NCBI GenBank assembly: GCA_022791055.1 | Contig: JAAVYI010000035.1 | Location: 1-53,534 of the forward strand | Length of the DNA stretch: 53,534 bases | Direction: 5' to 3' | Source of the DNA: Clostridia bacterium | GTDB taxonomy: Bacteria > Bacillota > Clostridia > Christensenellales > Pumilibacteraceae | Shown: one piece after another, positions 9,964 to 31,134 of the stretch | Position numbering within the stretch: the first letter of the stretch is position 1 | Layout: every line of letters starts with the position of its first letter | The notes under the pieces: generated by a model | Databases searched by the model: none | The model's input: only the letters and a program-made list of their open reading frames with translations | Told to the model about the DNA's origin: nothing | Program-made: the position numbers and the translations under genes

Positions 9964-10407
9964 ATGTTTCGATTCAATCCTTTATGGAGATGCTGCAACA
10001 GCTGTTGCCCCGACGACTGCATTCCGGAGCCGCCGTGTCCCGAGCCGCAGCCCTGTCCCCCGCCGCATCACCACTGCTGTGAAGTAGGTCCGACCGGACC
10101 GATGGGTCCGACCGGCCCGCAGGGCGTGCAAGGCATTCAGGGTGTTCCCGGCGCGACAGGCGCAACCGGTGCGACGGGCGCTACGGGCGCTACCGGTGCG
10201 ACCGGCCCGATGGGGCCGATGGGTCCGCAAGGTTTCGCCGGTCCCGTAGGTCCGACAGGTCCGCAGGGTATTCAAGGCATTCAGGGCGCAACCGGCCCGA
10301 CAGGCCCGCAAGGTATCGCAGGCCCCGCAGGCCCCACCGGTCCTGCCGGCGCTACCGGCGCCACGGGCGCGACGGGCGCGACGGGCGCAGTTGCTCGTTT
10401 GCTTTAA
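9964..10407 (+). CDS. 5' half of a collagen-like G-X-Y protein gene, interrupted by the 20-kb element
   Basis: As it stands the gene encodes 147 residues: a short Cys-rich N-terminus (CC at 10-11 and 14-15, further Cys at 19, 25, 31, 38-39), a Pro-rich stretch, then G-X-Y triplets from residue 42 (GPTGPMGPTGPQG, GATGAT repeats). At codon 143 (10390) the repeat abruptly becomes V-A-R-L-L-stop, supplied by the inserted element. The missing C-terminal half lies at 30643-31134 in the correct phase. GTGAGG precedes ATG 9964 by 10 nt, and TATAGT overlaps this region. Collagen-like proteins of spore formers (BclA type) build exosporium filaments; the adjacency to spoIIID fits but the location is inferred. 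Confidence 0.85.
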   Translation: MFRFNPLWRCCNSCCPDDCIPEPPCPEPQPCPPPHHHCCEVGPTGPMGPTGPQGVQGIQGVPGATGATGATGATGATGATGPMGPMGPQGFAGPVGPTGPQGIQGIQGATGPTGPQGIAGPAGPTGPAGATGATGATGATGAVARLL

Positions 10408-10412
10408 GGGAC
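10371..10412. other. attL of the 20-kb element
   Basis: The left side is collagen-coding sequence (GCGACGGGCGCA), the core is GT at 10390-10391, and the right side is TGCTCGTTTGCTT followed by TAAGGG (10405-10410). The element supplies a stop codon (TAA 10405-10407) that truncates the collagen frame. Confidence 0.75.
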
Positions 10413-10443
10413 GGTTTTTACTCTTTTTTGTTGATATTCTTCT

Positions 10444-12042
10444 TTAAAGATTTTCGCCTTTTCGGAACTTATAGTGAATATCGATCTCGCGTTCTTCGTT
10501 GTCGGCAACCTTTTCCCCGATTGCTATGTAGTCGATCAGCTGTAAGCACATCTCGCGCGTAAGGCTGTCGCCTTTACCGTAGCTTTTCAGTCTGCGTATG
10601 TATTCCTCTGCGTCCGCATCGTCTTGATTCGATTCGGCAAGCCGTTTTTCGATTTCGGCGAGCATATTCTGTACCGCCTCTTTTTCGGCTTGGTACTTTT
10701 CGCAAAGGCTTATACAAACGCTTTCGGGCATCTTACCCAATACCCTTTCTTCAAACGCGGTTTGGATCAATTTGTCCAATTCGGCAAGTCTATTTTTGGT
10801 TGCTTTGAGTTGCTTTTCGTCGGAATAGCGGCTTTGCTCGGTATGCTTTGCACGCGCTCGCAAAAACCGTTCTTTTGCTTTCGCTTCGTCGATCTCCACG
10901 TCCTCTAATAAAGAATGTATATCGTCCAAAACCAATGCTTCCAGTAGCTGTTCCGTGATGTGATGCGACGTACAATACTTCTTTCCGAGATCGACATAGG
11001 TACGACATACAAAACAATTACGGACATCTTTGGCTGATTTGAATTTGAGTTTTTTGCCGCAATGCGGGCAAACGACCAATCCCGATAACGGATGCACTAC
11101 GTTTGCTTTATCAGCCCGTCCGCACTTACCCTCATAAGTTGCCTGTACTTTATCCCAAATCTCTTTGCTTATGATCGGTTCGTGTGCGTTCTCATTTACT
11201 ATCCACTCGTTTTGGGGTATCTGTACAACCTTATGGTTTTTATAGGAAACCCGCGTCGTCTTATGCTGTACCGTATGACCGAGATAAGTAGGATTTGAAA
11301 GTATCCATCGTATTGTTTCTGGATTCCAATACGGTTTACAAGGTCTGTTCCATTTACCGCCGTCGAGCTTGGTAAAGTACGTTGCCGGATTGGGTATTCC
11401 CTCGTCCGTTAAAATTCTCGCAATCGTCCGCGCCGAATGCCCCTGCAATCGCAAATCGTAAATGCGCTTTACGACGGTTGCCGCTTGTTCGTCAATGACC
11501 GCCGTGCGGCTCTCGTCGTCCCCCGCCTTATACCCGTATGGATAATTCCAATTCGTGTACTTGCCCGAACGCTGACTCGATTCCAATACCGCTCTTATCT
11601 TTTTGCTTGTATTCGCCGCGTGCCACTCGTTAAACACGTTCATGATCGGCATCATATCCATTGCGGTGCTTGTTCGATCTGCGGTATCTACGTTATCGTT
11701 GATTGCAATAAACCGTATTCCGTAAGCAGGAAATATGTAGTCTATATACTGTCCGACTTCGATATAGTTACGACCGAACCGCGATAAATCTTTTACGATA
11801 ATCGTATCGATTCTACCCGACTTCGCATCATCTAACAATCGTTGCACGTCGGGGCGGTCGAAGTTCGTTCCCGAATATCCGTCGTCGGCGTACTCGTCCA
11901 CCACTTGGAATCCGTGTTCTTCGGCGTATTGCCGAAGCAGTATGCCTTGATGCTCGATAGACATGGATTCGCCCGCTTTCTCGTCCTCTTTGGAAAGCCG
12001 TTTATAAAGACCTGTTTTATTCAGTTGTTTTTGCTTTGCCAT
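10444..12042 (-). CDS. tnpX: TnpX-like large serine recombinase
   Basis: This 532-residue recombinase is the likely integrase/excisionase of the 20-kb element. The N-terminal resolvase domain has the catalytic Ser in GLYKRLSKED (about residue 17) and the typical DGYSGTNFDRP and VKDLSRFGRNY motifs. A recombinase domain (YGYKAG, ILSNPTYLGHTVQ) and a zinc ribbon (CPHCGKK and CRTYVDLGKKYC, about 325-365) follow, then a coiled-coil-rich C-terminus. This is the Tn4451/Tn5397 TnpX family. It reads towards the left end of the element, its stop lying 54 bp inside the GT core. The frame is full length and all visible catalytic residues are present. Confidence 0.92.
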   Translation of the reverse strand: MAKQKQLNKTGLYKRLSKEDEKAGESMSIEHQGILLRQYAEEHGFQVVDEYADDGYSGTNFDRPDVQRLLDDAKSGRIDTIIVKDLSRFGRNYIEVGQYIDYIFPAYGIRFIAINDNVDTADRTSTAMDMMPIMNVFNEWHAANTSKKIRAVLESSQRSGKYTNWNYPYGYKAGDDESRTAVIDEQAATVVKRIYDLRLQGHSARTIARILTDEGIPNPATYFTKLDGGKWNRPCKPYWNPETIRWILSNPTYLGHTVQHKTTRVSYKNHKVVQIPQNEWIVNENAHEPIISKEIWDKVQATYEGKCGRADKANVVHPLSGLVVCPHCGKKLKFKSAKDVRNCFVCRTYVDLGKKYCTSHHITEQLLEALVLDDIHSLLEDVEIDEAKAKERFLRARAKHTEQSRYSDEKQLKATKNRLAELDKLIQTAFEERVLGKMPESVCISLCEKYQAEKEAVQNMLAEIEKRLAESNQDDADAEEYIRRLKSYGKGDSLTREMCLQLIDYIAIGEKVADNEEREIDIHYKFRKGENL

Positions 12043-12057
12043 GATTGCGCTGTATCC

Positions 12058-12243
12058 TTACAAGCCCATTTCCCGATCGGCACGACAGATCGCAAGTTCC
12101 GTCATAAGGGTCGTCAGATCTTTGTCGCCCGCAAAATGTCTTGTAATGATAAACCGCTTCCCGTTGATTTCGCATCTGCGTTGGGAAGTCGGAACATTTT
12201 CTTTTTGGGTTTTTATATCCGCTGTTCTTTTATCCGTTTCCAT
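12058..12243 (-). CDS. TnpW-like small protein upstream of the recombinase
   Basis: This 61-residue protein has a polar N-terminus and a core INGKRFIITRHFAGDKDLTTLMTEL resembling the TnpW family of Tn4451-like elements (typically an INGxxYxVxxHFs pattern). It ends 15 nt upstream of the recombinase start on the same strand, the standard position. The function of TnpW is not established. The assignment is by pattern and position and is only moderately secure. Confidence 0.65.
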   Translation of the reverse strand: METDKRTADIKTQKENVPTSQRRCEINGKRFIITRHFAGDKDLTTLMTELAICRADREMGL

Positions 12244-12322
12244 ACCCTTTAAAAAGTTTTTAAGTCGCTTACTAAAACTTTCTATATGTATATGACCGAA
12301 TATCCTGTCCGTATAACCCCGG

Positions 12323-12364
12323 CAAAAAAAATGTCCGTATTACTCGTACTTGTACTACGGACAT
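12323..12364 (-). terminator. Terminator of the FAD oxidoreductase / TIM-barrel operon
   Basis: On the minus strand ATGTCCGTA (12364-12356), a 16-nt loop and TACGGACAT (12339-12331) are followed by TTTTTTT. It lies about 75 bp past the stop of the gene at 12441. Confidence 0.8.
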
Positions 12365-30310: not shown

Positions 30311-30339
30311 TGCAATTAGCCTCTCTTACTTTTATATTT

Positions 30340-30374
30340 CGGTTTGCAAGCGGCCGCACACCGCTTGCAAACCG
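30340..30374 (-). promoter_or_regulatory. 15-bp inverted repeat operator/hairpin upstream of GH112
   Basis: TCGGTTTGCAAGCGG and CCGCTTGCAAACCGA (arms 30339-30353 and 30361-30375) are perfect inverted repeats with a 7-bp spacer, starting about 10 bp downstream of the -10 element and ending 29 bp before the ATG. It could be a repressor operator or a 5' mRNA stabilising hairpin. No U-run follows, so it is not a terminator. Confidence 0.75.
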
Positions 30375-30385
30375 AGCCTGCCCCA

Positions 30386-30414
30386 ATTATACATACAATT
30401 TTCTCCTTTGTCAA
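30386..30414 (-). promoter_or_regulatory. Consensus promoter of GH112
   Basis: On the minus strand TTGACA (30414-30409), 17-nt spacer, TATAAT (30391-30386): a perfect sigma-A-type consensus. A promoter this strong followed by an operator-sized inverted repeat suggests control by repression. Confidence 0.85.
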
Positions 30415-30619
30415 GTTCCATACAAAAAGATGCTGTATTCTTTGCGGTCAAGTCGAATGCTGTCCGTATATCCCCCCCCCGCAGCCACGGTTTATTGTCT
30501 TGATCGTTCAATCTCCCCAACAAACGTCGATATAGAAAAACTCGCAAGATCGTTTACTGTATCTTGTGGGGTTTTGCTTTATTATTACCATAACGGAACG
30601 CTTTGCTTCGGTTTTCGAC

Positions 30620-30665
30620 CTTTCCCTTATGACGCCTGTTCCGTAGGCCCCACCGGCCCTGCCGG
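30620..30665. other. attR of the 20-kb element
   Basis: The element side reads CCCTTA (30624-30629), 13 nt, then the GT core at 30643-30644, after which the collagen-coding sequence AGGCCCCACCGGCCC resumes. The interval 30415-30623 holds no gene; an imperfect palindrome CAAGAT-N10-ATCTTG (30543-30564) is the only other structure I see there. Confidence 0.75.
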
Positions 30666-31134
30666 CGCGACGGGTGCGACAGGTGCTACGGGCGCGACGG
30701 GTGCGCAAGGTCCGCAGGGTGAAGTCGGTCCGACCGGCCCCACCGGCCCTGCCGGCGCTACGGGCGCTACCGGTGCTACAGGCGCGACGGGCGCGCAAGG
30801 TCCGCAGGGTGAAGTCGGTCCGACCGGCCCCGCAGGTCCTGCCGGCGCGACGGGTGCTACCGGTGCCACGGGCGCAGCCGGCCCTGTCGGTCCTACGGGT
30901 CCGACCGGACCGCAAGGCGTAGCGGGTCCCGCAGGTCCGACCGGACCGACAGGCCCTGCCGGTACGATCACCCCGGCGGCGGCCGTCCCCGATGTGGAAG
31001 GTACGCCGACCCCCGACGAAGTGGGCGCGACCTTAAACCAACTGTTGGCGTCGCTGCGCGCGGCCGGATTCTTGCAACCGAGTACGGTCGTCACCACCGA
31101 ACACGATACGGAAGTCGAGCTTAATCGCGAATAA
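30643..31134 (+). pseudogene. 3' half of the collagen-like gene, separated from its start by the 20-kb element
   Basis: The frame from codon GTA 30643 gives G-X-Y triplets (GPTGPAGATGAT, GAQGPQGEVGPTGP repeats) and then a non-collagenous C-terminus (TITPAAAVPDVEGTPTPDEV, NQLLASLRAAGFLQP) of about 57 residues, which probably forms the trimerising head. There is no start codon with a ribosome binding site in frame, so it is silent in the integrated state. Joined to codon 142 of the left half it yields one 305-residue protein: ...TGATGA-V-GPTGPAG... with unbroken triplet phase. Confidence 0.88.

Follow-up and report, generated by a model that had tools for sequence, protein, structure and literature searches.

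The stretch of Clostridia bacterium DNA analyzed here (contig JAAVYI010000035.1 of assembly GCA_022791055.1, 53,534 nucleotides; hereafter the window) contains a 20,253-bp element at positions 10390–30642 that interrupts a collagen-like gene and encodes a large serine recombinase. The element belongs to a family of serine recombinase islands lodged in the Gly-X-Y (GXY) codons of collagen-like genes, and we put the probability that such islands are cut out late in the mother cell, with rejoining of the gene, at about 0.6. The part of this reading drawn directly from sequence comprises the split gene, the centered attachment site, a recombinase clade tied to collagen genes, ten in-phase rejoinings, and an enrichment of promoter-like boxes.

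A Collagen-like Gene Is Split by a Recombinase Element

The left half of the gene (frame 9964–10407) opens with ATG and runs through GXY repeats before ending in five codons, V-A-R-L-L, and a stop that lie inside the element. The right half is an open frame without a collagen start of its own. The two junctions, 20,253 bp apart, are identical only in the dinucleotide GT (10390–10391 and 30643–30644), and joining the halves in silico at this GT yields 305 codons with no stop and with the GXY phase intact. The stop codon of the recombinase gene is 54 bp from the left junction, on the element side. The GT core of the would-be attP has CCC at exactly 16 nt on its 5′ side and GGG at exactly 16 nt on its 3′ side; this spacing, together with the same ends in related elements, indicates a junction pattern that is more than chance. 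A collagen model searched against the window's genome matched only the two halves of the split gene, which together have a BclA-like layout in the order of their parts: an N-terminus of its own, a GXY region, and a C-terminal head.

The original prediction, made from the letters of the window, had described both halves, the junctions sharing only GT, the unbroken 305-residue frame, and the position of the recombinase, and our recomputation agrees with it on each of these. It had also placed the gene beside spoIIID, an adjacency that is real. GXY runs of at least eight triplets occur at none of 29 other spoIIID loci (stretches of up to about 1.5 kb per side, shorter in several), so by this comparison the spoIIID vicinity is incidental to the pattern.

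Ten Elements Follow One Attachment Rule

Both ends of an element were recovered on one contig in ten cases, the window and nine relatives, under the attachment rule CCC-N16-AC-N16-GGG. The core AC is common to all ten; it reads GT in the window, where the element is inserted in reverse, like L192. The elements span 3.6–20.3 kb with varying cargo (L172, 3,597 bp; L190, 4,386 bp; L177, 4,799 bp; L179, 5,416 bp; L183, 6,035 bp; L173, 7,803 bp; L197, 8,368 bp; L195, 10,778 bp; and the L204 element, read as L299, 14,924 bp). In silico rejoining leaves the GXY phase unbroken in 10 of 10; the joined frames of L172 and L179 reach the contig end, and that of L177 meets a second element. Because the left-end search also struck chance places in collagen coding DNA (for example L088, L103, L135, L175 at 8075, and L266), we accepted left ends only if the GXY phase breaks off behind them.

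The attP consensus of nine elements is TCCC, 16 nt, AC, 16 nt, GGGAAA, and the corresponding attB consensus is GGtCC.AC.GG.gCt-AC-gGGtgC.aC.GG.CC. By this nine-element consensus, the target site is therefore the Gly-X-Thr-Gly stretch itself, which is nearly its own mirror image.

The islands are not alike in cargo. L190 carries a uracil permease and a phosphoribosyltransferase, L197 a Gabija-type pair (positions 3459–7218; GajA and GajB models), L172 a candidate defence ATPase (PDC-S01), and L173 and L183 large proteins with carbohydrate-binding-type domains.

Two further arrangements were observed. At L177 (856–12412), two elements stand in tandem within one collagen gene, separated by 63 bp of GXY sequence. 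At L191 (2226–4641), a 2.4-kb piece lies behind the first element and has left and right ends of its own with no recombinase match; it is perhaps a passenger mobilized in trans.

A Recombinase Clade Is Tied to Collagen Genes

In whole genomes, two recombinase relatives run into collagen genes, one in G030 (89% identity in the final 131 aa) and one in G093 (71%), and many other relatives at 45–50% identity have no collagen gene behind them. A scan of genome contigs with the recombinase gave 79 loci, whose titles include many uncultured Clostridia and several from chicken or rabbit: 47 best-matching loci (L163–L208 and L213) and 32 others. For the clade described below, the protein search also lists a cluster of 92% identity spread over 155 contigs. 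The recombinase is followed by the pattern CCC-N16-AC-N-GG and then in-frame GXY codons at 36 best-matching loci and at none of the 32 others, among which L234 runs off its contig and L231 and L240 have fewer than 130 nt after the recombinase stop. Between the end of the match and the core lie fewer than 100 nt at 33 of these 36 loci; the other three have 211 nt (L196), 522 nt (L213), and 2,833 nt (L198), and a second end is present in L191, at 2,478 nt. Past the core, GXY stays open for at least three triplets in all 36 positive loci, L192 having the opposite orientation, with the non-coding strand there.

A midpoint-rooted maximum-likelihood tree of 78 rows (L213 and L234 were excluded as too short) places the window in a 44-row clade with branch support 100/100. 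The clade holds 36 rows with collagen ends, the window among them, 4 without one in the available flank, and 4 cut by contig ends; none of the 34 remaining rows has a collagen end. Eleven of the 47 best-matching loci lack an end: L164, L176, L187, and L189 run off the contig, L200, L201, and L206 fall outside the clade, and L166, L181, L184, and L202 lie within it. The genomes of these last four all contain collagen ends, which stand on the same contig 20.6 kb downstream in L184 and about 11.9 kb downstream in L202; for L166 and L181 they are on other contigs, with no link to these recombinases established.

This distribution indicates that the family of serine recombinase islands with a collagen-repeat target is real and widespread in Clostridia. 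The original prediction had proposed a new case of an element splitting a sporulation gene; an element in a collagen-like gene with exact frame restoration is what we find, although it is one of a family rather than a single case.

Outside the clade, a distant recombinase (29% identity) in L096 (1550–3594; G021:C38) abuts a collagen-like right half without a CCC-N16-AC end, and perhaps represents a second lineage with the same target. At G002:C3 and G019:C5 (L082 and L083), the DNA downstream of recombinases outside the clade resembles, by eye, another recombinase gene.

Relatives Carry the Gene Whole

We scored 28 loci for intact homologues in related genomes. Seventeen were whole open reading frames (ORFs); we set aside L119, which has a masked stretch, and L124, a right half that carries an element end, which left 15 single-ORF homologues. 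The best, in G002, has 371 aa, with its N part scoring 97 and its C part 262; G065 (89 and 203) and G019 (84 and 207) also carry both gene ends. In G030, the collagen model matches only a left half on contig C25 that ends in an element end, and the right half, on C8, was recovered by the protein search. In G001, a genome of the same genus, neither the right half nor the recombinase finds a match. Relatives thus have the joined form, and the junctions of the window obey the site rule of the ten elements, which is the opposite of what would have spoken against the original prediction.

Among the best 120 of 7990 matches of the joined 305-aa protein in the protein collection, none exceeds 68% identity. 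The repeats saturated the candidates, and this search is uninformative on an empty allele. The C-terminal head alone, used as a query, gave one match. The original prediction is supported in part, as regards a single gene split by an element, its restored frame, and its whole homologues; no attP or attB pattern was found in the window's own genome, and no attP in viral contigs.

The Element Encodes a Recombinase, a Small Protein, and Cargo

The recombinase combines catalytic, Recombinase, and zinc-ribbon domains with a two-base core centered in a symmetrical attP. Its best NCBIfam match, CcrB, scores 150.9 bits, far under the cut-off of 900, and the XisF model gives 118 bits, under its cut-off of 375. 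Every match in the phage and plasmid collections is below 60% identity, and a phage or plasmid source of the recombinase was dropped on these grounds.

Directly upstream lies a 61-aa ORF with no match in Pfam, NCBIfam, or PHROG. A similar small ORF precedes the recombinase in 35 of 39 evaluable loci (of 47 related), and its product is a candidate recombination directionality factor. Pfam scans of 11 large ORFs recognized no phage structural or replication genes in the element, and a PHROG search of six of these ORFs and the small one matched the recombinase to an integrase and otherwise yielded regulator or weak matches. We accordingly rejected a prophage identity, as no phage structural or replication gene was recognized among the scanned ORFs; a general scan of these ORFs also brought no mobilization gene to notice. 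The cargo of the window probably amounts to a sugar or glycan utilization set, and its 1,3-beta-galactosyl-N-acetylhexosamine phosphorylase reaches 890.9 bits, above the cut-off of 560.3. Toward the right side of the window, at 50868–52430, there is another serine recombinase, a distant one (28% identity).

Table 1. Features of the split gene, the element, and its surroundings in the window
Feature	Position	Strand	Remarks
collagen-like gene, left half	9964..10391	+	Cys-rich start, GXY repeats; frame continues into element, stop at 10407
collagen-like gene, right half	30643..31134	+	GXY repeats and C-terminal head
element, left end	10390..10410	n/a	core GT, 16 nt, GGG; same rule in relatives
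element, right end	30624..30644	n/a	CCC, 16 nt, core GT
large serine recombinase, 532 aa	10444..12042	-	Resolvase, Recombinase, zinc ribbon, and DUF4368 domains (Pfam)
61-aa ORF, candidate recombination directionality factor	12058..12243	-	directly upstream of recombinase
cargo	12441..30310	n/a	TIM-barrel protein, FAD oxidoreductase, AraC regulator (+), 1595-aa Ig-like protein, unknowns, solute-binding protein, ABC permease, DUF4838 protein, 1,3-beta-galactosyl-N-acetylhexosamine phosphorylase
predicted sigma-K-type promoter of collagen gene	9896..9923	+	AC-N17-CATAGAATG; motif counts
predicted promoter of small ORF and recombinase	12286..12312	-	AC-N16-CATATACAT; fits looser box only
spoIIID	9505..9789	-	Pfam SpoIIID, E 5.3e-34; neighbor outside element

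Promoter-like Boxes Suggest Shared Timing

The form AC-N17-NATANNATG stands upstream of 15 of 41 collagen genes with a Cys-containing start (shuffled sequences: mean 0.06, maximum 1) and of 15 of the 46 in the deduplicated set (shuffles, maximum 1). Removal of near-copies had reduced the operon upstream regions from 37 to 33 and the collagen upstream regions from 47 to 46; L243, L257, and L271 were excluded from the collagen sets. Of the 33 operons, 21 carry AC-N15..18-CATA ahead of the small ORF and recombinase, versus 31 of 294 control ORFs from the same loci (p 3e-11); for AC-N17-NATANNATG the counts are 5 of 33 versus 0 of 294. The upstream regions of spoIIID are of a different type: 23 of 29 have ATA-N15..17-CATA and one has AC-N16..17-CATA, as against 2 of 33 and 15 of 33, respectively, for the operons. 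The vegetative-type TTG/TATAAT precedes only 1 of 46 collagen genes.

In Clostridioides difficile, one study assigns a second sigK promoter with AC and CATATAAT to sigma-K and puts the collagen-like genes bclA1–3 under sigma-K control (PMC3789822). Because AC/CATA-type boxes lie upstream of both the operon and the collagen gene, and given this sigma-K precedent, we predict that the recombinase operon and its target gene belong to one late mother-cell set. The window's genome encodes two sigma factors of the SigE/SigK type; their scores of 294.5 and 263.3 bits both fall below the SigK cut-off of 298.65, which 0 of 14 control genomes reached.

In several of nine loci viewed by eye (L163, L164, L165, L167, L168, L169, L171, L174, and L175), the space between small ORF and recombinase holds a GGTATAAT-like -10 box in a palindrome, ATGGTATAAT...TACCAT, which is perhaps an operator.

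Mother-Cell Excision and Its Alternatives

Excision in the mother cell is the best-supported mechanism, given the enrichment of AC/CATA boxes and the reported C. difficile sigma-K promoter. Sigma-K would read the boxes of both operon and collagen gene, and the small upstream protein would switch the recombinase from integration to excision. The mother cell would then excise the island late in sporulation and rejoin the collagen gene, whose product would be a spore-surface protein. The forespore would retain the island, and the split would therefore be cheap in growing cells as well as inherited. In the subset of relatives with a vegetative-type promoter between small ORF and recombinase, recombinase made from that promoter, without the small protein, could serve integration.

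Several observations weigh against this mechanism. No excised circle of the window's species turned up in its own genome or in the viral contigs, and no empty site in its own genome. The AC-N17-NATANNATG form was first spotted by eye in part of the set and counted afterwards, six of its 15 matches being in sequences unseen at that point. Boxes are absent from 12 of the 33 operons and from the upstream regions of 31 of the 46 collagen genes, and the operon of the window carries the looser box only. A strict Bacillus subtilis-type sigma-K pattern matches 1 of 41 collagen upstream regions, which is no better than in shuffled sequences (mean 0.31, maximum 4). Directly before the recombinase, TTG/TATAAT is found in 11 of 38 clade and 13 of 29 non-clade loci, and the AC-N17 box in 0 of these 67.

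An unlikely explanation, though one with appreciable weight, is target preference alone: collagen repeats happen to spell a near-symmetrical site, and the islands knock out a dispensable gene with no developmental excision. The consensus, nearly its own mirror image and spelled by Gly-X-Thr-Gly codons, agrees with this, as do the whole, island-free genes of many relatives, the presence of a vegetative-type promoter at 11 of the 38 clade loci, and the failure to find an excised form (in the own genome and, for attP, also in viral contigs). Against target preference alone stands the operon box, which is enriched over control ORFs and of an AC type unlike the ATA type of spoIIID. The right halves, which stay open for at least three GXY triplets in 36 of 36 loci, also argue against it, although recent insertion would explain them equally.

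We consider it improbable that the element is a reversible switch of growing cells, varying a surface protein by excision and reintegration as in phase variation or bet-hedging. The joined gene would be complete, and a subset of recombinases has a vegetative-type promoter, but the collagen promoter-like boxes are not of the vegetative type and, because no replication gene was recognized in the scanned ORFs, an excised circle would be lost on division. That the recombinase diversifies collagen genes through their different repeats, with the island as a by-product, is very improbable: repeats within one gene do offer many similar sites, and tandem elements exist (L177), yet the ten paired ends have one core, uniform ends, and in-phase rejoining, and the islands bear unrelated metabolic and defence cargo. 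An assembly artefact is hardly credible, since the same architecture recurs in ten elements from different assemblies, even though collagen repeats assemble poorly and several relatives break there. Developmental excision is the best explanation, short of proof.

Comparison with Known Systems

The element lies in a protein-coding gene, its removal restores the frame exactly, and it carries its own site-specific recombinase; these are features of sporulation gene-intervening elements. Pointers to a possible sporulation role of the split gene are its collagen layout and its AC/CATA box. The element gin in gerE of Bacillus cereus ATCC10987 resembles the present one as a non-phage element with a serine recombinase and an attP symmetrical about a central dinucleotide. 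It also has a helper (GirC, GirX), sits in a sporulation gene, and is excised in sporulation, to which the small ORF, the collagen-like target, and the predicted excision would correspond here; it differs in having a single small regulator gene as target and three recombinase genes (PMC5595907). The present family is instead a whole clade on repetitive collagen genes, in which a single recombinase is accompanied by a small ORF, the cargo varies, and excision is predicted. The C. difficile skin element in sigK pairs a large serine recombinase with a small directionality factor under mother-cell control, an arrangement predicted in our family too, but it has another target, and its recombinase is expressed from sigma-A while its factor depends on sigma-E/SpoIIID (PMC5025042). 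In our family, recombinase and small ORF are predicted to share one AC/CATA box.

SPbeta in spsM of B. subtilis is described as a serine integrase element in a spore-surface gene that is excised in sporulation; it is a phage, whereas no phage structural gene was recognized in the scanned ORFs of our element. SCC cassettes, with Ccr recombinases, share the recombinase type and are described as accreting in tandem, as in L177. The recombinase is probably of the same type as TnpX of Tn4451, and its domain layout fits this; both SCC and Tn4451/TnpX differ in target and core and have no tie to sporulation. Developmental rejoining by a serine recombinase occurs also at the fdxN element with XisF in cyanobacterial heterocysts, which involves another phylum, gene, and cell type. 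By prediction, the present family is likely a variant of the gin/skin/SPbeta logic. A literature search (titles and abstract openings in a limited collection) found nothing linking collagen-like genes with such recombinases.

Implications

To our knowledge, the sporulation-gene elements known so far are single cases in few genes. Here, a recombinase clade is tied to one repetitive gene class across many uncultured Clostridia, with cargo spanning sugar, uracil-salvage, and anti-phage (Gabija) functions. The family yields a codon-level target rule as well as a candidate directionality factor, and its recombinases, whose attachment site is defined, may aid genetic work in Clostridia. It also makes directly testable the long-standing question of why mobile elements choose sporulation genes, a possible answer being that such a gene is silent until a terminal cell needs it. 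We see an even chance that collagen-like spore genes are a dedicated, many-slot landing site for cargo islands that act as developmental DNA introns. One late mother-cell promoter class would then serve the target gene, the directionality factor, and the recombinase; the terminal mother cell would splice its collagen gene at the DNA level, the cargo would stay in the spore line, and islands would pile up in successive Gly-X-Thr codons.

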